Assembly (NCBI GenBank): GCA_001898255.1
Contig: MKTK01000031.1
Span: 44,913-77,072, forward strand
DNA: 32,160 nt
Origin: Chryseobacterium sp. 39-10
GTDB lineage: Bacteria > Bacteroidota > Bacteroidia > Flavobacteriales > Weeksellaceae
Direction: 5' to 3'
Part shown: one piece after another, positions 9,407-18,379 of the stretch
How positions within the stretch are numbered: the stretch's first letter is position 1
Layout: every line of letters starts with the position of its first letter
Program-made: the position numbers and the translations under genes
Notes under the pieces: generated by a model
Seen by the model: the letters and a program-made list of their open reading frames with translations, nothing else
Database searches by the model: none
What the model was told of the DNA's origin: nothing

Positions 9407-12400
9407 TTACCCCACATTTGCATTCACATTAATCTCATCAATAAGCATAATGATTTTCCCAGATTTATCGGCATCGTCGAAAACCCCAAATAAGCCAGAA
9501 TCATCCACATCGGTAAAAGGTGGCTGGGTGAGCATTGATTTTTCGAGCACACCGTTTATGGTTAAATAATCGATCACTTTCTGAACAAACACCATTTGGT
9601 TGGCGGTCAGGTTTTCGTTTTGAATAAATGTGGCAAAATGCCTGTTGGCAGCTTCGGTATCCAGTCCTAAAATCTTTCGGATAAAGATGCCGAGGGACTT
9701 GGTTTCATATTCATTTTCAATGTCACTCAGGTTGAATTTTTCGTGGGTCAGGAATTGCTCCAACGCTTGTAGTTCGGTTGGGGTAATGGGAATATTGCGG
9801 TACAATTTATCAATAACCAAGTGGTTTTTGTTCTTTTTGATGAAATATTCCACGCGGTCTTTATAGCTTTGCAGGTGTTTGTATTTTTCCAGCAAATCCA
9901 CTTCTTTGACGCCGGAAAAATCCAGCTCATCTTCGAAATGGGAATAGACCGGTTTTTCCGGATTTTCATCTTTCAGCAACTGCATCAGATCGCGCAGTTC
10001 TGTACGGATTTTTTCTAAACGATTCAAGGTTACCGATGACCAAAACGCTTCCGATTTAACAGCTTCAATTGTTTTCTCCTGTTGTTTTACGGATGGTATA
10101 TTTCTTTTTTTCCAGAGTAAATTTCCAATATTTACCAGATTAGCAATGTAGGTTTTTTGCTTTTTATCGGTTTTCAGAATGGCGATTTCTAACTGATAAA
10201 TCAGCAGATCAAAACGTTTTGCCATTTCATCTTTGTCATCTGTATAAGCCGCAAGGTTGGAGATGCTGTTGTGAATTTCCAGCATCGAAGAATGGTTCAG
10301 GTGCTCCCAGTTTTCGCGGTTTTTGTATTTCTTCACCATTTCCCAGTTGCGGCGCACTTCAAAACGGCTTTCATTTAGATTAGTGATTTTGGAATGCAAC
10401 TCATCGGTGTACGATTTCGCAAAATCCAGCTCTTCCTGCGAAGCATTTTCTAAATTCTGGATCGCAAAAACAACTTCCAACTGCGCTTCAAATAATTGTT
10501 GTTGCAGTGGTTTCTGCTGTTTGGACTGGTAACCATCCGGAAAATCATCAAAGAACTCAAAATTGGCACAAATATCAAAAATCAGAAAACAATCCTTGTC
10601 TTTGCCGGGACCAAAGATATTGGGACACAAACGCGTTCCCCGCCCAATCATTTGCCAGTATTTGGAATAAGATTTTACTTCTTTAAAAAAGACCAGGTTC
10701 AACACTCTTGGCGCATCCACTCCGGTATCCATCATATCCACAGAAACGGCAATCTGCGGGTCTTTTTCTTCGCCTTTGTCAAAGCAAAAGCGTTCTAACA
10801 AATCCTGCGCTTTGTCGGTATAATTGTCGATCACCTGAAGGAAAGTTCCGCCATATTCAGGATAATTTTTATTAAATCTTTCCTCAATAAACAGGGCGTG
10901 CTGATGGTTTTTAGCAAAAATAATGGTCTTTCCCAGCTTATCGCCGGATTCTATATGCAACCCATTTTTCATCAGGTATTCCAGCACCAGATCAACCGTA
11001 TTGGCATTGAAAAGGAAGGAGTTGATTTTGGATTTCGAGATGGTGGTGATATCTTCCTGATCTTCTTCTATCTGTATCCCGAACAATTCTTCGAAATGGG
11101 TTTTGTCTTTTTCCGAAAGTTCTTTGTATTTTACGCCTTCGCGGGGAAATTTCACGGGAACGGTAAAGGATTTTGGCGGAATTAGATAACCGGAATCTAC
11201 TGCTTCATTCAGTTCATAAGCAAAAGTGGGGTTATCGTCTTCAATCTCGAAAAGGCGGTAGGTGTTGATGTCAATATCTTTTTTGGGAGTTGCCGTTAAA
11301 CCAATCAAAAGTGCGTCAAAATAGTCGAAAATCGCCTGGTATTTTTGGTACACCGAGCGGTGCGCTTCATCAATAATGATGACATCAAAATGCCCGATTC
11401 CGAACAACTTCTCATCATTATTCCTCATATTGTCGATGCGGTTAAGAATTGTGGGATAAGTGGAGAACACAATTCTGGCTTCGGGATTGTCTTTTTCCTT
11501 GGTTAAATCGATTGCGGAAAGTTGAGGCAGGTACTCTTTAAACGCATTTTTTGCCTGTGTTACCAATGCGTTTCGATCTGCAAGAAACAAAATTCTCTTT
11601 GCCCAGTTGCTTTTGGTTAGCATATCGACAATGGCGGCAGAGGTTCTGGTTTTGCCACTTCCGGTTGCCATTACCAAGAGTGCTTTGCGGTGTTTCCCGG
11701 TTAATGTACCGTTTTTTGTGGCGGCAAAGTTTTCGGCAACACGCTGAATGGCCTGCAACTGATAAGGTCTTCCTGCAATGGCCGTATTGATCGGAAACTG
11801 GCGTATGTCCTGCCGGTTGGTTCTTCTTCTGATGAGCGTCTGCAACTCTTCTTTGGTATAGATGCCATAGACTTTTCTTGCCGGATAAAACTGATCGTCC
11901 CACAGATAGGTATCGAATCCGTTGGAATAGAAAATGACGGGGCGTTGCCCGAACTGTTTTTCCAGGCAATCGGCATAGAGAAATGCCTGATGTTTTCCTT
12001 TGGCGGCATCAAAAAGTGTTTTTTTGGCTTCAATCACGGCTAAGGGTTTACCATTATCGTCCCACAAAACATAATCCACGAAACCTTTTCCGGATGGATT
12101 GGTGGAGTGCGGCATTCCTGAAACTTCAAATTCCACGGTTACGGACGGCAACACCCCGTCCTCCTTCGTCGGACACCCCTCTTGAAAAGAGGGGAATTTC
12201 CAGCCGGCTTCTTTCAGCAGCAGATCAATGAGCTGTTTTCTGGTTTGTGCTTCCGAGGTAAGTTCGGGAACGGGTTCGGTATGTTGGTATATTGCTGTTC
12301 TTTCCGTTTTTCTTTCCGCAATGATTTGAAGTTGTTCTTTGAGCCGGGCTTTTAATTGTGCATTTTCTTCGGCTAAAATTTGTTGTTGCTTAAGGGCTTT

Positions 12401-12898
12401 CTCAGTCGATTTGCGTTCTTTCTCAAAATCTTCGGCCAATTGCTGGAGTTGTTTTACGGTCTTGTCTTTTTGATCGCCGTAAGGAATGTAGCGTTCTTCG
12501 AACGCAGGAACATCGGGATCTTCTTTGCTGTAATATTTGCTGATCCAGGACAAAAACCGGAAGATGTTTTTCAGCGATTGAAGCGCGTCCAGCGCACGAA
12601 TCTTTTCTCCGTGTGCGGCTTTGTTGCCAAATCGGCGCACAATATCCAGCTCCATAATCATACTTGGCTTAATGATTTCTTTGAAGGAATCGCTTTGCAA
12701 CAGTACTGCAAGTGTTGCCTGATAAGGCATTACCAGGTCTTCATCGTTTTCGTAGAGCCAGAACATTGCTTTTTCTAAGGTGCTTCGGCAAAGCAAAGCC
12801 GCATAACGGGGTGCGGTAAACGTATGCTTTTCAGCTTCTGCAGCTTCGCTGTACAGGTTCTTAAATTCGGTGATGAGAAAAGTAAAGTTGCTGTTCAT
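9407..12898 (-). CDS. hsdR: Type I restriction enzyme R subunit
   Basis: Motor and nuclease subunit of a Type I R-M complex, 1163 residues. A DUF4145-like helical N-terminus (~1-125) is followed by a coiled coil (~140-205). The HsdR nuclease domain has FVDYVLW and E290-A-K292 in VIEAKK. The SF2 motor has ATGSGKT at about 408-414, DEAH from D510, GLTATP, and motif VI QMIGRGTRL. The C-terminus matches EcoEI-type R subunits (SYTDELHSKI, LGLDTEAANRHFATFI). A palindromic repeat is translated in frame at about residues 233-249 (KFPSFQEGCPTKEDGVLP), between GW and the EFEVSGMP strand. It is the last gene of the minus-strand locus; the gap to hsdS is filled with palindromes. Confidence 0.93.
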   Translation of the reverse strand: MNSNFTFLITEFKNLYSEAAEAEKHTFTAPRYAALLCRSTLEKAMFWLYENDEDLVMPYQATLAVLLQSDSFKEIIKPSMIMELDIVRRFGNKAAHGEKIRALDALQSLKNIFRFLSWISKYYSKEDPDVPAFEERYIPYGDQKDKTVKQLQQLAEDFEKERKSTEKALKQQQILAEENAQLKARLKEQLQIIAERKTERTAIYQHTEPVPELTSEAQTRKQLIDLLLKEAGWKFPSFQEGCPTKEDGVLPSVTVEFEVSGMPHSTNPSGKGFVDYVLWDDNGKPLAVIEAKKTLFDAAKGKHQAFLYADCLEKQFGQRPVIFYSNGFDTYLWDDQFYPARKVYGIYTKEELQTLIRRRTNRQDIRQFPINTAIAGRPYQLQAIQRVAENFAATKNGTLTGKHRKALLVMATGSGKTRTSAAIVDMLTKSNWAKRILFLADRNALVTQAKNAFKEYLPQLSAIDLTKEKDNPEARIVFSTYPTILNRIDNMRNNDEKLFGIGHFDVIIIDEAHRSVYQKYQAIFDYFDALLIGLTATPKKDIDINTYRLFEIEDDNPTFAYELNEAVDSGYLIPPKSFTVPVKFPREGVKYKELSEKDKTHFEELFGIQIEEDQEDITTISKSKINSFLFNANTVDLVLEYLMKNGLHIESGDKLGKTIIFAKNHQHALFIEERFNKNYPEYGGTFLQVIDNYTDKAQDLLERFCFDKGEEKDPQIAVSVDMMDTGVDAPRVLNLVFFKEVKSYSKYWQMIGRGTRLCPNIFGPGKDKDCFLIFDICANFEFFDDFPDGYQSKQQKPLQQQLFEAQLEVVFAIQNLENASQEELDFAKSYTDELHSKITNLNESRFEVRRNWEMVKKYKNRENWEHLNHSSMLEIHNSISNLAAYTDDKDEMAKRFDLLIYQLEIAILKTDKKQKTYIANLVNIGNLLWKKRNIPSVKQQEKTIEAVKSEAFWSSVTLNRLEKIRTELRDLMQLLKDENPEKPVYSHFEDELDFSGVKEVDLLEKYKHLQSYKDRVEYFIKKNKNHLVIDKLYRNIPITPTELQALEQFLTHEKFNLSDIENEYETKSLGIFIRKILGLDTEAANRHFATFIQNENLTANQMVFVQKVIDYLTINGVLEKSMLTQPPFTDVDDSGLFGVFDDADKSGKIIMLIDEINVNANVG
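12151..12200 (-). repeat. palindromic repeat inserted in frame in hsdR
   Basis: A perfect 8-bp inverted repeat, CCCCTCTT (12176-12183) and AAGAGGGG (12187-12194), has a 3-base loop and is followed on the coding strand by a GTGTCCG...GACGGGGTG tail. The composition differs from the surrounding gene. The translated peptide interrupts the HsdR nuclease domain where homologues, from memory, go almost directly from AGW to the nuclease strand. It resembles a dispersed flavobacterial repeat type; copy number must be checked in the whole genome. Confidence 0.65.
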
Positions 12899-12967: not shown

Positions 12968-13207
12968 GGCTGGCTTCGGCTTCGGTGGCTTCTGGCTTCG
13001 GCTACGCTGGCTTCGACTTCGCTGGCTTCGACTACGCTCAGCCACCGTAGTGCGGTCACTGAGCGGAGTGCGGTCACTGAGCGGAGCCGAAGTGACCGGT
13101 GGCTGCGTAGAACTTTTACCGCTGGCTTCGACTTCGCTGGCTTCGGCTTCGCTCAGCCACCGGATTACGGTCACTGAGCGGAGCCGAAGTGACCGGAGCC
13201 GGAGCCA
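12968..13207. repeat. palindrome cluster A (hsdR-hsdS gap and hsdS end)
   Basis: Dense array of partial and whole palindromic units built from GGCTTCGRCTYCGCTCAGCC and its complement, with arms such as GGTGGCT/AGCCACC and GGTCACT/AGTGACC. Units are joined head to head and head to tail without regular spacers. It fills the gap between hsdR and hsdS and runs into the last ~25 codons of hsdS. Peptides read from it are the repetitive AERSRSQRSRSQ type. Confidence 0.85.
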
Positions 13208-14381
13208 CAAATGCTTCCTGCAACAAACGCTGGAACAGTGCTTCACTTTTGGCTAAGCCGTCTTGTGCCAGTTGTTTTTGGGCTTCTATTTTTTCGATGC
13301 GTTCGGCGAATTGGTTTTGGAGTTGGATTGGGGGAAGTAATAATTCAAGCTCTTCAATTCTAAACAATGCTAACTTGGGAACACCAACAGCCATAGTTTT
13401 TTTTGAAATATTTTTCTGAACAAATTCCATTTGTAAATAAAAAGCTAAATATTTACTATCTAAAATTTCTTGATTCTTTACTAAGATTTTATTTGCATTC
13501 TCGGTTAAATTAGCTTTATGTAATTCTTTTGGAACAATTCCAATATCTCCAATATTAGCACCAACCACAGTAATACAAACATCACCTTCATCAACAATAT
13601 AGTTTTTTATTTTTTTTTGTGTTTCTGGAAGTAAGAACTCTAAGTCTTTTGTTGTTACTTTTCCATTCTTGATATTTCCTGCTTTTATATATGGAAAACC
13701 TGTATTTTCTTTTATTAATGATTCTCCTTTTGGAACTCTTTTTCCGCCTTTTATTTTGCATTGTTCTTTTAGCAGTACCTTTAAAAAACCCTTTTCATTT
13801 TTCACGGGATCCCCGAACATATCAAGGAAAAGCGACTGTGTAAGGGCATCGTATTTGCCAATGAGTTGCTGGTTGAGCCGGCGGATTTCATCGGCTTTGT
13901 CCAGTTTTGCAGCAATGGATTTTTGCTCGGATAATGAGGGAAGTGGGATTTCTAAATCTTTTACGATACCTAATGAAATATTCATCAAAGCTACTCCAAC
14001 CGCTCTATTTAACAATTTTTCTTTTATAGACTGAAACCAATACCGAAGATAATTAATATCTAAACGCTCAACATCTTTGATATTAATTCCTAAGATAGCT
14101 TGATTAGTTGTTAAATCAATTCCCGTAATAGCAGTTTTTCCCACAGAACCATACATCGCCAACAATAAAGTTCCTTTTTTGAAAAATCGGTTATTAATTG
14201 ACTGTAATCCTTTTTCTGTTATTAATTCCTCAGTTGAATATACATATCCATCATTTGAAGTTTCTAAATCACTGATTTTTGCCCAAGGTATAGTTCCGTT
14301 TTCCCAAAAAACAGAACTTTTTCTTGATGGCGTTCCACCACTTTGCATTTGACATAATTCTCCTATTCTAACTTTCTCCAT
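13116..14381 (-). CDS. hsdS: Type I restriction specificity subunit S
   Basis: DNA-recognition subunit that sets the bipartite target of the Type I methylase and nuclease. Two target-recognition halves are visible: MEKVRIGELCQMQSGGTPSR with WAKISDL, and KIKGGKRVPKGESL with FPYIKAGNI. Each is followed by a conserved helical spacer (PLPSLSEQKSIAAKLDKADE at about residue 150; PPIQLQNQFAERIEKIEAQ near 358). The expected end after LLQEAF is replaced by about 27 residues encoded by palindrome cluster A (VAPAPVTSAPLSDRN, AERSRSQRSRSQR). The ATG at 14381 overlaps by one base the stop of the mini-ORF just upstream, implying coupled translation. Confidence 0.92.
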   Translation of the reverse strand: MEKVRIGELCQMQSGGTPSRKSSVFWENGTIPWAKISDLETSNDGYVYSTEELITEKGLQSINNRFFKKGTLLLAMYGSVGKTAITGIDLTTNQAILGINIKDVERLDINYLRYWFQSIKEKLLNRAVGVALMNISLGIVKDLEIPLPSLSEQKSIAAKLDKADEIRRLNQQLIGKYDALTQSLFLDMFGDPVKNEKGFLKVLLKEQCKIKGGKRVPKGESLIKENTGFPYIKAGNIKNGKVTTKDLEFLLPETQKKIKNYIVDEGDVCITVVGANIGDIGIVPKELHKANLTENANKILVKNQEILDSKYLAFYLQMEFVQKNISKKTMAVGVPKLALFRIEELELLLPPIQLQNQFAERIEKIEAQKQLAQDGLAKSEALFQRLLQEAFVAPAPVTSAPLSDRNPVAERSRSQRSRSQR

Positions 14382-14452
14382 TACCTCAATATTTTTTCGA
14401 GTTCAAGCATTGCGTTTTGTCTTTTAACATCGACGGTTATATTATTTTTCAT
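14381..14452 (-). CDS. 23-codon mini-ORF, echo of hsdM 3' end
   Basis: A short frame of 23 codons (MKNNITVDVKR then QNAMLELEKILR). Its end copies the HsdM C-terminus (RQNAILELEKMLG). Its ATG overlaps the TGA of the chimeric gene by one base and its TAA overlaps the hsdS ATG by one base. The likely role is to carry ribosomes onto hsdS as the original hsdM-hsdS junction did; the peptide itself is probably not functional. Confidence 0.5.
   Translation of the reverse strand: MKNNITVDVKRQNAMLELEKILR
14385..14422. repeat. 38-bp direct repeat, copy 1
   Basis: Matches 15659-15696 at 35 of 38 positions, in the same orientation. It is the duplicated hsdM 3' end lying just before hsdS. Together with copy 2 it brackets the chimeric gene. 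Confidence 0.85.
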
Positions 14453-15639
14453 CATTTGATATTTTCGGATGGGTTGATGGTTTTGTAGGCCTGTTTTGGG
14501 TGGTTGATGACTTCGGGAATCGAATATCCTATTTTTTCTTTTTTCATTAATACATTCAAGAATTTTTCCCGAATATGGTGTGGTCTTCTCTTTAGAATTT
14601 TAGACAGTTCATCCAAATTGAATGCTTTTATGTTGCATATTTCCAAGATGACTTCTTCCATTATTTCGGGTTTGCTTCTGCTTCCCAAACCACGAATTTT
14701 TTGTTGCAATGCTTCGGGGAACTCCAACAATAAGGAGTCGAACTCCACCAATAAGGAATCAGACTCCACCAATAAAGAGTCGGACTCCCCAAATAAGCCA
14801 TGGAAGTTACCAGATAAGAGATCGGACTCCCCAGATAAGCGTTCTCGCTGGTGGAGTTCCAAGGATTCTAAAAATATTTTTCCGGGTACGTAATAGGTGT
14901 TTTTCTTTGAGTTTCCTTTTTGTTGTAACAGATTACAGGTCACCATTTTTCTAAGATCTGTACTGGATTGAAAAAGGTTAACACCTGTTGATTGCCTATA
15001 TGCAAGATTATCTAACGCTCCTACTTCCCGCAAAAATATAAGTGCCGTTTTTTGCTCGTCATTGAGTTGGAACTCGTCAAATTTCATTAGCCAAGAATGG
15101 TCTGTTTCATTAATAAGATGATGCAATAATAATCTTAAGGTAAAACTGTTTGCAGCATGAGAACTTTCAAATGTTGGGGGCAACATTTGACTTTTCAATA
15201 AGAGTTTTTTCATCGATTTAATTCCCGTTCCTTTGGTCTCTGCAAGATTGGTATCGTGAAATATAGATGCGATATGTGGATTCCTGGCAAATGAACCGGG
15301 TTCGCCAATAGAATCAATCGCTTTTAGAGATTTGTTATTTTCTAAAAAGGCAGTTACCGACTGCCCAATTTGTGGATATTCTTGATGAAATTGTCTGAAA
15401 AGTTTTAAGTTTCTGTAAGATAAACTTTTCTGATTTAGATTTTCGGCTAATTTTTGCAATAAAAACTTCCCATATTGTGCTCTATCTTCACCATTTTGTT
15501 CAAACTCAACAATATAATAACCAATCAACCAATTTCTTATGGTAAGATAGATATTAACCGCTTTTGCTGCACTTTGCTGTGTTGCAGTATGAGTATTTTG
15601 TATATTTTGTTGTAGAATTTCAAAATTCATAACGATCAT
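14452..15639 (-). CDS. chimeric DUF1016-N / RecG-like-tail protein
   Basis: A 395-residue product assembled from two families. Residues ~4-105 match the N-terminal domain of DUF1016/YhcG proteins (YLTIRNWLIGYYIVEFEQNG, GKFLLQKLAENL, LSYRNLKLFRQFHQEYP), but the expected PD-(D/E)XK nuclease half is missing. After about residue 110 it continues with the end of an AlbA/RecG-like ATP-binding family (GSFARNPHIASIFHDTNLAE, TKGTGIKSMKKLL). A winged-helix segment (~200-250), a heptad tandem repeat (~265-306) and a second helical DNA-binding-like part follow. It starts 15 bases after hsdM. Starts at 15639 or at the ATG at 15630 are both possible. It is probably a deletion fusion of two R-M cargo genes; whether it works is unknown. 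Confidence 0.75.
   Translation of the reverse strand: MIVMNFEILQQNIQNTHTATQQSAAKAVNIYLTIRNWLIGYYIVEFEQNGEDRAQYGKFLLQKLAENLNQKSLSYRNLKLFRQFHQEYPQIGQSVTAFLENNKSLKAIDSIGEPGSFARNPHIASIFHDTNLAETKGTGIKSMKKLLLKSQMLPPTFESSHAANSFTLRLLLHHLINETDHSWLMKFDEFQLNDEQKTALIFLREVGALDNLAYRQSTGVNLFQSSTDLRKMVTCNLLQQKGNSKKNTYYVPGKIFLESLELHQRERLSGESDLLSGNFHGLFGESDSLLVESDSLLVEFDSLLLEFPEALQQKIRGLGSRSKPEIMEEVILEICNIKAFNLDELSKILKRRPHHIREKFLNVLMKKEKIGYSIPEVINHPKQAYKTINPSENIK
14719..14844 (-). repeat. 21-bp tandem repeat in the chimeric gene
   Basis: Six 21-base units in register with the reading frame encode variants of ESDSLLV (ESDSLLV, EFDSLLL, ESDLLSG, with one unit diverged). The plus-strand unit resembles GACTCCACCAATAAGGARTC. 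Unit number could change without shifting the frame. Confidence 0.85.
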
Positions 15640-15654
15640 TTTTAAAGCGGTAAT

Positions 15655-17307
15655 TTATCCCAACATTTTTTCGAGTTCAAGAATTGCGTTTTGTCTCAGT
15701 TGGTCCAGTGCTTTGATGTCGGCAATAATGGTTTCGGGTGCATCGTAGTGCACTTCTTCGTAAACGGTTTCTTTGTAGCGATTGATGCTGAGGTCATAAT
15801 CATTGGCCACAATTTCTGCTTTGGGCACGAGGAAGGATTGTTGGGTTCTGGCTTTGGCTTCGACTCCGCTGGCTTCGACTCCGCTCAGCCACCGTTTGGA
15901 ATGTGCTGCCGGAGTGGAGTCGGCGGTGGCTTCGGTATCGGTGGAATCGGCTTCGCTGGCTTCGGCTTCGCTCAGCCACCGATGACGATTCCATGCTAAT
16001 AAAATATCGGGGATGTCGCATTTTCCGGCGACTTCGTCTTTAATATTCTCTGGCTCAGAAAATACCTGATCAAACGCCTCTTCAGAAATCAAAAGATTGC
16101 GTTTGTCATCCAAGCTCAGTCCATCGGCTTTCATATCGTAAAACCAAACATTACTGGTACCACCCATATTGGTTTTGGTAAAGAGCAAAATGGCCGTACT
16201 TACGCCTGCATACGGTTTGAAAACCCCACTCGGCATCGAGATAACGCCTTGCAGCTGATGGTGTTCTACCAGTTCTTTACGAATATTCTTGTGTGCTGTG
16301 GAACTTCCGAACAATACGCCATCGGGAACGATTACAGCGGCGCGTCCACCGGTTTTCAGCATCCTGAGAATCAGTGAAAGAAAAAGAAGTTCTGTTTTTT
16401 TGGTTTTCGTCACCTGCAACAGACTTTTTTCTACTTCGTCATAATCCAGCGCCCCTTTAAAGGGTGGATTGGCAAGGATTAATGAATATTTATTGCTGAT
16501 GTCATTGCTTTCTGCCAACGCACTACCGCCTTCCAGATTGGGGTTTTCGATGCCGTGCAATTGCAGGTTCATAGAAGCAATTCGCATCATAGAAGGATCA
16601 ATCTCAATCCCGTTGAACATTTTTTTGTTGTAATGTTCTCTAAAATCTTTTTCTAAAAACCAATCGTTATGCACCTCGTGCATATACTGACTTGCATTAA
16701 CCAAAAAACCAGCGGTTCCCATTGCGGGATCACAAATGGTATCTTCCTTATTGGGTTCCATCAGTTCTACCATCATCCGAATAATATGCCGTGGGGTACG
16801 GAACTGTCCATTGGTTCCGGCTTCTGCAATTTTGGAAAGCATATATTCGTACAGATCGCCTTTGGTATCTTTCTTTTCTAAGGGCAGTTTGTCGATCTGC
16901 TGCACCACTTTGTCCAATAGTTTGGGCGTGGGAATCATAAAGGTTGCGCCTTTCATATACTCGGAAAACTTGCCACCATCTGCACCGAGCGTTTTCATAA
17001 AATCAAAAGCCGTGGTATTATTTAGCTGCTCTTTTGGACGGGTAAAAGTGATGAACATCTCTTCCGGCTCCTGATCTTTGAAATTGGACCAGCGCAACGG
17101 TACTAAATTTTCGGGATAAATTGGTTTGCGCTGTGAACTTCCTAAAACAGTCATATCTTTTTCGTAAAGCGTTTGTCTGTCGTCCAGTTGTTTCAGAAAT
17201 ATAAGGTAGGTAAATTGCTCTATGACCGTTAGAGGGTTAGAAATTCCGCCTGTCCAGAAGTCGTTCCAGATTTTATCGATTTGAGATTTTAGTTCTCCGG
17301 TAATCAT
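15655..17307 (-). CDS. hsdM: Type I N6-adenine methyltransferase M subunit
   Basis: Modification subunit of the Type I system, methylating adenine with S-adenosylmethionine. The helical N-terminal HsdM_N region (SQIDKIWNDFWTGGISNPLT) precedes the Rossmann methylase core. The SAM motif DPAMGTAGF starts at about residue 193, and the catalytic NPPF is at about 281-284. TGGRAAVIVPDGVLFGS follows. Residues ~440-486 are palindrome-encoded and in frame (RWLSEAEASEAD, then RWLSGVEASGVEA), sitting between AWNRH and SFLVPKAEIVANDYDL. The native C-terminal helix resumes to LELEKMLG. A run of nine A residues lies directly before the ATG. All catalytic motifs are intact. Confidence 0.94.
   Translation of the reverse strand: MITGELKSQIDKIWNDFWTGGISNPLTVIEQFTYLIFLKQLDDRQTLYEKDMTVLGSSQRKPIYPENLVPLRWSNFKDQEPEEMFITFTRPKEQLNNTTAFDFMKTLGADGGKFSEYMKGATFMIPTPKLLDKVVQQIDKLPLEKKDTKGDLYEYMLSKIAEAGTNGQFRTPRHIIRMMVELMEPNKEDTICDPAMGTAGFLVNASQYMHEVHNDWFLEKDFREHYNKKMFNGIEIDPSMMRIASMNLQLHGIENPNLEGGSALAESNDISNKYSLILANPPFKGALDYDEVEKSLLQVTKTKKTELLFLSLILRMLKTGGRAAVIVPDGVLFGSSTAHKNIRKELVEHHQLQGVISMPSGVFKPYAGVSTAILLFTKTNMGGTSNVWFYDMKADGLSLDDKRNLLISEEAFDQVFSEPENIKDEVAGKCDIPDILLAWNRHRWLSEAEASEADSTDTEATADSTPAAHSKRWLSGVEASGVEAKARTQQSFLVPKAEIVANDYDLSINRYKETVYEEVHYDAPETIIADIKALDQLRQNAILELEKMLG
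15659..15696. repeat. 38-bp direct repeat, copy 2 (inside hsdM end)
   Basis: This copy is the true 3' coding end of hsdM (RQNAILELEKMLG) and matches 14385-14422 at 35 of 38 positions. The three differences suggest the duplication is not recent. Confidence 0.85.
15850..15983. repeat. palindrome cluster B inside hsdM
   Basis: Two groups of GGCTTCGACTCCGCT...CAGCCACC-type units (15850-15893 and 15925-15980) are separated by about 30 bases. The whole insert keeps the hsdM frame open and in register. It shares its unit with clusters A, C and D. Confidence 0.85.
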
Positions 17308-17349
17308 TTTTTTTTTGAATTTTTGAGGTGTAAAAATAGGGATAATTTT

Positions 17350-17514
17350 GGTGGCTTTGGTGGCTGGCTTCGGCTCCGGTGGCTGAGCGGAGCCGTCGGT
17401 GACTGAGCGAAGCCGAAGTCACCGTAACTGAAATCACCAACTACTACGGTGGCTGAGCGGAGCCGTCGGTGGTTGAGCGGAGCCGTCGGTGGCTGAGCGT
17501 AGCCGAAGCCACCA
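17350..17514. repeat. palindrome cluster C upstream of hsdM
   Basis: Array of GGTGGCTGAGCGGAGCCG units. The best single palindrome is 17488-17513, with arms GGTGGCT (17488-17494) and AGCCACC (17507-17513). It fills most of the gap between the GIY-YIG gene and hsdM, so any hsdM promoter must lie in or beyond it, or in the ~40 AT-rich bases next to the hsdM ATG. Confidence 0.85.
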
Positions 17515-17524
17515 GAGCTGAAAA

Positions 17525-17836
17525 TCACTCTTTCTTAAAATTTTTCCAATGGGTTTCATTCATGCATTCTGCAGCTTTTTTCAGTTCTTGTTCCCAACCG
17601 TTGATCAATGCTTCTTTCTTTTTTCTGCTCCACCCTTGTATTTGTTTTTCTCGGTAAAACGCTTTATCAATCCTTTGGTATTCCTCGTAATAGACCAATT
17701 TTACAGGAAGCCGCTTTTTCGTATGATTTGCGGCTTCTCCTGATTGGTGCTGTGCAAGACGAAGTTCTAAGTTATTGGTACTTCCGGTATAATAACTTCC
17801 ATCTGAACATAATAGAATATACATATAGCCAAGCAT
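17525..17836 (-). CDS. GIY-YIG domain nuclease
   Basis: Single-domain GIY-YIG protein of 103 residues. The motif pair is YMYILLCSDG and YYTGSTNNLELRLAQHQSG, with the catalytic-type arginine in LELRLAQH. The REKQIQGWSRKKKEALI helix is usual in the UvrC-like small family. The ATG at 17836 (or 17824) is chosen because the longer frame to 18064 reads through palindrome cluster D and yields only repetitive Arg/Ser peptide. The gene is wedged between clusters C and D. Such proteins cut or nick structured DNA; the role here is unknown, and it may be cargo of the R-M locus. Confidence 0.82.
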   Translation of the reverse strand: MLGYMYILLCSDGSYYTGSTNNLELRLAQHQSGEAANHTKKRLPVKLVYYEEYQRIDKAFYREKQIQGWSRKKKEALINGWEQELKKAAECMNETHWKNFKKE

Positions 17837-17876
17837 AATCAAAATTTTAGAATGATAATTTTCAAAATTACGCATT

Positions 17877-18061
17877 TGGCTTCGACTTCGCTGGCTTCGG
17901 CTCCGCTCAGCCACCGGAGCCGAAGTCACCGAGAGCGCCGTGACTGAACGGAGCCGAAGCAACCGAGAGTACCGGTGGCTGAGCGGAGCCGAAGTCACCT
18001 TTGCTCCCGTGGCTTCGACTTCGCTCAGCCACCGGAGCCGAAGCCACCGGAGCCGGAGCCA
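17877..18061. repeat. palindrome cluster D between HIRAN and GIY-YIG genes
   Basis: Seven or so units of the same family as A-C, including GTGGCT (18009-18014) facing AGCCAC (18027-18032). It begins just before the GIY-YIG start and ends 4 bases short of the HIRAN gene's stop codon. Confidence 0.85.
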
Positions 18062-18064
18062 CAT

Positions 18065-18379
18065 TTACTTCACCAAATGCACGACCACCGAAATCTGATT
18101 TTCGGGATGCGCATCTTTTGCAATACGCTGGATTCTGGCTTCAACGAACTTTTGTAAGCCAACGCTAAAAAGTTTGTAAAAGATTCGGTTTTCGGATCGT
18201 GGAACGTAGCCGAGTTTGTGATCTTCGTAATAAATAGCCACCGCACGCGGATCGTATTTATTTTCCTGATCCAGCTTCAACCGGAGTTTGGTGCCGATGC
18301 GCAGGTCTTTGAACGCCAATGCACCATCATAATAAGTGAAGCCGGCAATGTCGAAATGGGATAAATGTTCTTTTTTCAT
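18065..18379 (-). CDS. HIRAN domain protein
   Basis: The 104-residue protein is essentially one HIRAN domain: FDIAGFTYYDGALAF, then LRLKLDQENKYDPRAVAIYY, then HKLGYVPRSENRIFYKL. These match the family pattern of a GxxYY start, the N-x-YDPxAVAV strand and the LGYVPR strand. HIRAN domains bind 3' DNA ends in helicases such as HLTF and occur alone in bacterial defence and repair neighbourhoods. Its stop abuts palindrome cluster D. It is preceded by 238 bases holding a membrane-peptide remnant. Confidence 0.82.
   Translation of the reverse strand: MKKEHLSHFDIAGFTYYDGALAFKDLRIGTKLRLKLDQENKYDPRAVAIYYEDHKLGYVPRSENRIFYKLFSVGLQKFVEARIQRIAKDAHPENQISVVVHLVK

Follow-up and report, generated by a model that had tools for sequence, protein, structure and literature searches.

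Palindromes at the restriction-modification locus and the gene they enclose

We analysed a 32,160-base stretch of the Chryseobacterium sp. 39-10 genome (the window), in which four clusters of short palindromes, A to D, lie among the genes of a type I restriction-modification (R-M) system. Clusters C and D enclose a small GIY-YIG nuclease gene that a preliminary description of this DNA did not mention. The clusters and the gene, with the positions of the palindrome cores, are as follows.

12968..13207: palindrome cluster A, cores at 13026, 13077, 13141 and 13174; enters the hsdS frame at its 3' end
15850..15983: palindrome cluster B, cores at 15873 and 15960; in frame within hsdM
17350..17514: palindrome cluster C, cores at 17383, 17403, 17453 and 17493; directly downstream of the GIY-YIG gene
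17525..17836, minus strand: single-domain GIY-YIG nuclease gene with a core of 103 amino acids (PF01541, E-value 2.3e-18); the putative element enzyme
17877..18061: palindrome cluster D, cores at 17895, 17944, 17979 and 18013; directly upstream of the GIY-YIG gene

We found 14 copies of the core CTGAGCGNAGYCGAAG (≤2 mismatches) in the window, all within 13026-18028, against a mean of 0.03 and a maximum of 1 in 100 dinucleotide shuffles. The G+C content of the clusters is 63-66% (41% for the window). The preliminary description had given the same coordinates for the clusters and had confined their units, within the window, to the interval between hsdR and the HIRAN-domain gene; both statements hold. 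Not all of the clusters, which it placed mostly at gene borders, are intergenic: B lies inside hsdM and A encodes the hsdS tail. D is also read as part of a gene: a listed open reading frame (ORF) of 179 amino acids extends to 18064 solely by translating this cluster as an N-terminal extension of the nuclease. Three folded window-type units form DNA hairpins of 26-29 nt (z -2.6 to -3.0); GGTGGCTGAGCGGAGCCGAAGCCACC and CGGTCACTGAGCGGAGCCGAAGTGACCG are examples. The units occur in both orientations at irregular spacing, without the regular spacers of a CRISPR (clustered regularly interspaced short palindromic repeats) array, and we agree with the earlier view of them as short hairpins of a mobile kind, neither CRISPR nor simple tandem array. 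Across the window's own genome (3.07 Mb, 41 contigs), all 12 matches to the 21-nt pattern TGAGCGNAGCCGAAGNNACCG (≤2 mismatches) fall at the window locus; of 14 matches to a shorter pattern, two lie on another contig.

The profile of the nuclease matches the UPF0213 structures 1zg2 and 1ywl, its closest solved structures, both labelled hypothetical. A structure model (predicted local distance difference test score 82) retrieves UPF0213 folds as the best matches, followed weakly by Slx1 (E-value 0.02). An NCBIfam search returned weak matches only, all below the cut-off. Residues Y6, Y16, G18, R26 and E63 are invariant across 10 nuclease sequences; we take the conserved Tyr, Arg and Glu to have catalytic roles. 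From this domain, these residues and the model, the gene is predicted to encode a GIY-YIG nuclease. It has its fold in common with UPF0213 proteins and GIY-YIG homing endonucleases, but its 103-residue core is too small to include a separate DNA-binding domain, and palindromes frame the gene. Slx1, judging by entry titles, acts on branched DNA, which would fit a hairpin substrate, but it differs in acting together with Slx4. Some relatives (e.g. L062, L174) have C termini that continue into tails such as GFDSAQP, apparently translated from the downstream palindrome. At L104, L118 and L119 (genomes G029 and G014), GIY-YIG genes stand in a row with repeats in between.

Relatives of the nuclease are usually flanked by palindromes on both sides

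We searched for relatives of the nuclease in 36 genomes of the genus (26 with a match) and 197 of the family (115 with a match), and, from 150 listed family matches, took 80 for analysis, mostly as 20-kb stretches. When the 300 bp upstream and downstream of each gene were compared without any predefined motif, a shared repeat reaching score 16 was found at 66 of the 80 loci. The corresponding rates were 20 of 1600 for control windows drawn from these stretches and 15 of 569 for ORFs between 80 and 170 amino acids long. Within the genus, 27 of 30 loci reach this score, a few of them being tandem nuclease genes and one repeat being tRNA-like. We then sorted the flank repeats into six palindrome types (one mismatch allowed, within 350 bp of the gene). 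At least one type is present at 106 of 113 distinct nuclease genes, and 78 have an identical type on both sides, an arrangement seen in 1/1600 control windows and 0/569 control ORFs (any type on either side: 53/1600 and 30/569). Palindrome density falls about 170-fold with distance, from 9.25 per kb within 100 bp of the nuclease to 0.055 per kb at 5-10 kb. Among the 46 Bacteroidota nuclease genes with an asymmetric head mapped on both sides, 27 have both heads facing outward; among the related palindromes found beside other family nucleases, there are types with TGTCA heads. Most of these genes carry repetitive extragenic palindromes (REPs) of one family on either side.

Palindrome type also follows the nuclease phylogeny. 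Mapped on a tree of 112 proteins, the six types require 12 changes (minimum possible 5), against a mean of 64.9 for shuffled types, and none of 200 shuffles was as low. Types A to E each arise in more than one place on the tree, many branches of which are weakly supported because the protein is short. None of the motifs was found at L108 and L113, the two deepest rows; the flank repeat of L113 resembles part of a tRNA. Overall, the linkage between nuclease and palindrome is two-sided, clade-matched and well supported.

The preliminary description had called for the unit to be counted in other genomes, where it indeed recurs. A scan for GGTGGCTGAGCGNAGCCGAAGCCACC in one genome per GTDB species yielded 48 stretches, mostly from Bacteroidota, with three cyanobacteria and single representatives of other groups. 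Nine contain a nuclease relative, framed by the palindrome on both sides in eight and truncated by the end of the stretch in the ninth. Of 35 searched genomes that carry the exact window palindrome, 22 have a nuclease at least 60% identical, versus 30 of the 197 family genomes (P-value 1.6e-8); the two sets overlap by at least 4 genomes and differ in taxonomy. One of the 35, the cyanobacterium Leptothoe (L345), has the palindrome on both sides of the nuclease gene. The motif GTCATTGCGAGG has 134 copies in 36 genomes; a GIY-YIG gene lies no more than 1 kb away from 35 of them, where 0.13 would be expected. The median number of copies is 6 in the nine genomes with a nuclease framed by this type and 1 in the other 27 (P-value 0.0009), a comparison that is circular because the groups were defined by adjacent copies. 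There are 11 copies in genome G013 and 15 in G016, some of them in arrays with no nuclease detectable in about 20 kb.

REP-associated tyrosine transposases carry other repeats

A REPtron is a REP-associated tyrosine transposase (RAYT) gene flanked by GTAG REPs, and the preliminary description had proposed a RAYT-like mobiliser for the window repeats. The only RAYT-type match (PF01797) in the genome of the window lies on another contig and is flanked by different repeats. We examined 20 of the 95 listed RAYT matches, namely high-scoring ones and the one from the window's genome. The method used for the nucleases, applied here as a positive control, found flank repeats in 19 of the 20, and none of the 20 carries any of the six GIY-linked motifs. 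Likewise, none of the 134 copies of GTCATTGCGAGG lies within 1 kb of the 68 stronger among the 95 listed matches. We therefore rejected RAYT as the partner of these palindromes: none of the 20 loci shares a motif and the genome's own RAYT gene is on a different contig.

The unit occupies different sites

We compared 93 pairs of loci of the same palindrome type that have non-collinear neighbourhoods and a mapped head on both sides. In 16 pairs, homology is lost within 1 bp of both outer REP heads; counted as independent relocations, these pairs come to two or three. L172 and L174 have nothing in common over 20 kb except a 380-bp unit. L214 and L218 have a common region in which the REP-nuclease-REP unit stands at different places, and L218 and L224 have other sequence at the site that the unit occupies in L214 and L220. 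The unit is thus discrete, has defined ends and is found at different sites, as a mobile element would be.

Presence and absence of the unit are seen at single junctions too. The L171 unit (genome G002) has syntenic counterparts in other genera, and the same gene junction leaves no room for it in the other 35 genomes of the genus (29 junctions read, 6 judged from coordinates). The spacers lacking this unit are too diverged to fix an insertion point or define a target-site duplication. In Sinorhizobium K101, the flanks are 95-96% identical to those of S. meliloti Ak57 and the gene is absent: a symmetrical REP hairpin and a second REP stand where Ak57 has REP-nuclease-REP. The K101 allele can be an empty target or the result of deletion between the REP arms.

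Nucleases of other phyla and CGTC REPs

A tblastn search against named plasmid records gave 33 records, from which we fetched 14 for diversity, together with 4 of 45 from a second search. Flank repeats scored above local control windows in 12 of the 14 and above shuffled flanks in 3 of the 4; three Sphingobium records represent one shared locus. In Salinivibrio (nuclease 32% identical), Rhizobium tumorigenes and Photobacterium, the flanks of the nuclease gene show no repeat above control. Judged by a simple pattern, the nearest heads face outward in 9 of the 18 loci and inward in 2. Flank repeats are headed by CGTC in most of the rhizobia, in Azospirillum and in sphingomonads, Novosphingobium included, and the nucleases of N. 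gonorrhoeae and Aeromonas are accompanied by ATTCCCGC...GCGGGAAT units with CGTC heads.

CGTC-tagged REPs were defined by Rocco, De Gregorio and Di Nocera (2013; PMC3733652) and include Neisseria dRS3 and Rickettsia RPE-4 and RPE-6. According to that paper, each is a small stem-loop headed by CGTC or TGTC and ending in a short tail, and they are found as dimers and clusters and partly within genes; repeats of this type are known from five phyla. The carriers named there include Azospirillum lipoferum, Sinorhizobium meliloti, Novosphingobium aromaticivorans and Neisseria (PMC3733652). Flanking CGTC REPs occur at nucleases in Sinorhizobium, Azospirillum, Novosphingobium and Neisseria, and the flank units at the nucleases of A. 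lipoferum, S. meliloti, N. aromaticivorans and Neisseria match this form. The sole proteobacterial unit folded, the rhizobial CGTCATCCTCGGGCTTGACCCGAGGATCCA, has an unpaired CGTC, a 9-bp stem, a 5-nt loop and a terminal CCA, in agreement with the definition (CGTC head, AT stem start, stem of 8-9 bp, loop of 4-5 nt, tail near CCA). The Sphingobium and Novosphingobium units have the CGTC head and lack the AT pairs. The window units differ from CGTC REPs in their GGTGGCT or GGTCACT arms and mostly lack the CGTC, TGTC or CCTC head of the superfamily.

The defining paper reports no dedicated transposase for CGTC REPs and ends by asking what moves them (PMC3733652), whereas the CGTC REPs described here have a linked nuclease. 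By their listings, the few publications that join GIY-YIG with a repeat term concerned fungal mitochondria or introns, a phage and soybean, in a search whose coverage excluded most subscription papers and preprints.

R-M genes around the clusters

The neighbouring genes of the window are the following.

9407..12898, minus strand: hsdR; neighbour, outside the element
13116..14381, minus strand: hsdS; about 30 C-terminal codons encoded by cluster A
15655..17307, minus strand: hsdM; holds the in-frame insert of cluster B, about 30 residues, in a variable linker
18065..18379, minus strand: HIRAN-domain gene (PF08797, E-value 1.2e-16); neighbour, outside the element

Copies of the repeat are found both in genes and in spacers near the nuclease. 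The insert of cluster B is absent from all 10 HsdM homologues compared. The linker is shorter by about 30 residues or more in seven (the closest 77% identical); in three more distant ones (~50%) it is long and unrelated to cluster B. The core is not present in nine homologous R-M loci of relatives (14.6-19.9 kb each), one of which keeps the hsdS-ORF-hsdM order of the window; the repeats are therefore not part of the R-M system. In post hoc comparisons, any Hsd match near the nuclease was found at 5 of 24 loci of the window's nuclease clade versus 2 of 56 others (P-value 0.02), and two or more Hsd genes at 3/24 versus 1/56 (P-value 0.08). Both genus genomes opened for this question, G013 and G027, have hsdR, hsdS and hsdM beside the nuclease gene. 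This loose tendency of the nuclease clade towards type I R-M genes may reflect shared hypervariable sites.

Some further features were observed. A 42-nt direct repeat (14381-14422 and 15655-15696, 90% identity), in which the 3' end of hsdM recurs beside hsdS, frames an ORF at 14452-15639 (DUF1016_N, HATPase_c_4); the pair looks like an insertion joint for this ORF. The ORF contains a coding tandem repeat of 21 nt at 14721-14825. On a Planktothrix plasmid (L232), a GIY-YIG gene and GTCATTCTGAGT arrays lie between an MmeI-type R-M gene and the DISARM gene drmA.

A proposed REPtron-like element with an unrelated enzyme

Most probably, the window clusters are non-autonomous copies of an element that resembles a REPtron but has the GIY-YIG nuclease as its enzyme. 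The likeness to REPtrons lies in a small enzyme gene amid REPs, a repeat type that follows the enzyme clade, copies elsewhere in the genome and frequent inheritance. The differences are that the enzyme is a GIY-YIG protein (PF01541) and not an HUH (Y1) tyrosine transposase of the RAYT kind, and that the REP class is unlike GTAG, with RAYT loci of the genus bearing other repeats. The basic unit would be REP, nuclease gene and inverted REP. The nuclease may recognise and cut the hairpin that belongs to it, a head with its stem-loop that replication forks perhaps extrude. Repair or strand transfer would then copy REPs to new sites, many of them close to the source, and would do so less often with the complete unit. 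The R-M genes of the window would be bystanders hit by the spreading repeats.

Several observations weigh against this interpretation. Mobilisation by the nuclease is something we infer, unlike the linkage itself. The shared flank repeat stays below score 16 at 14 of the 80 family loci, and 7 of the 113 nuclease genes have no motif, a count that used six motifs chosen after viewing GIY-YIG flanks and that includes 9 genes located through the palindrome; the motif-free test is the cleaner one. Outward orientation of the heads is not universal, and the GTC head is missing from most window units. Among the 48 stretches with the exact palindrome, 39 have no nuclease in the fetched DNA. Copies of GTCATTGCGAGG more than 5 kb from a GIY-YIG gene are not significantly associated with nuclease presence (P-value 0.11), and arrays of this motif in L323 (8926-10073) and L322 (10204-14939) have no nuclease detected in ~20 kb; a REP-nuclease model must account for such arrays by loss. 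In 63 of the 93 non-collinear pairs homology fails to reach the head on at least one side, and it extends beyond the upstream head in 8. Finally, some units are syntenic across many species and are therefore inherited rather than jumping often.

The main rival holds that the nuclease is a homing endonuclease, a passenger that inserts into REP loops or arrays made beforehand by another process. GIY-YIG domains do occur in homing enzymes (PMC1564403), the hairpin allele of K101 looks as though the gene had entered a hairpin, there are arrays with no nuclease detected, and genomes with the nuclease do not clearly have more REPs at a distance from the gene. Against this, units in unrelated surroundings bring both REPs with them and homology can stop at the outer heads, the K101 allele is equally explained by deletion between REP arms, and no other enzyme was found linked to the repeats: none of the 20 RAYT loci shares a motif, and PMC3733652 reports none for CGTC REPs. 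On balance we consider homing unlikely, although a serious competitor of the REPtron-like reading. It is much less probable that the nuclease gene has been domesticated and that the REPs serve it as regulatory or terminator elements, conserved alongside it and leaving dispersed copies as relics: several units are syntenic over many species and a hairpin beside the stop codon could terminate transcription, but palindromes also stand upstream of the gene, in arrays, within hsdM and dispersed in genomes.

The two explanations of the preliminary description fare worse still. Mobilisation by RAYT could appeal to the one RAYT-type gene in the genome, yet that gene is on another contig, and of the 20 RAYT loci examined 19 have repeats of their own and none has a GIY-linked motif, which leaves this option almost no credibility. 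Recombination joints for exchange of R-M cargo would suit clusters at or in R-M genes, the somewhat greater frequency of this nuclease clade near type I R-M genes, and the gene sets of G013 and G027. However, nine homologous R-M loci have no copy, one cluster lies inside hsdM, and 19 of the 24 clade loci have no Hsd match, and we regard this idea, too, as extremely improbable.

A broader extension of the REPtron-like reading is that GIY-YIG nucleases are the missing mobilisers of the CGTC REP superfamily (dRS3, RPE-4/6, GTCATTGCGAG, GTCATTCTGAA). We offer it tentatively, as quite possible if not yet probable: it would amount to a second, independently evolved route of REP spreading, via structure-specific cutting of extruded hairpins and with no HUH transposase. 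The linked, clade-matched enzyme is a candidate partner for a repeat class without a reported transposase and makes the question of the mover testable. If the proposal is true, no fewer than two unrelated enzymes have given rise to REP-type elements, the UPF0213-like GIY-YIG proteins, a common but uncharacterised family, would gain a role, and insertions within genes, such as the one in hsdM, would have a source.

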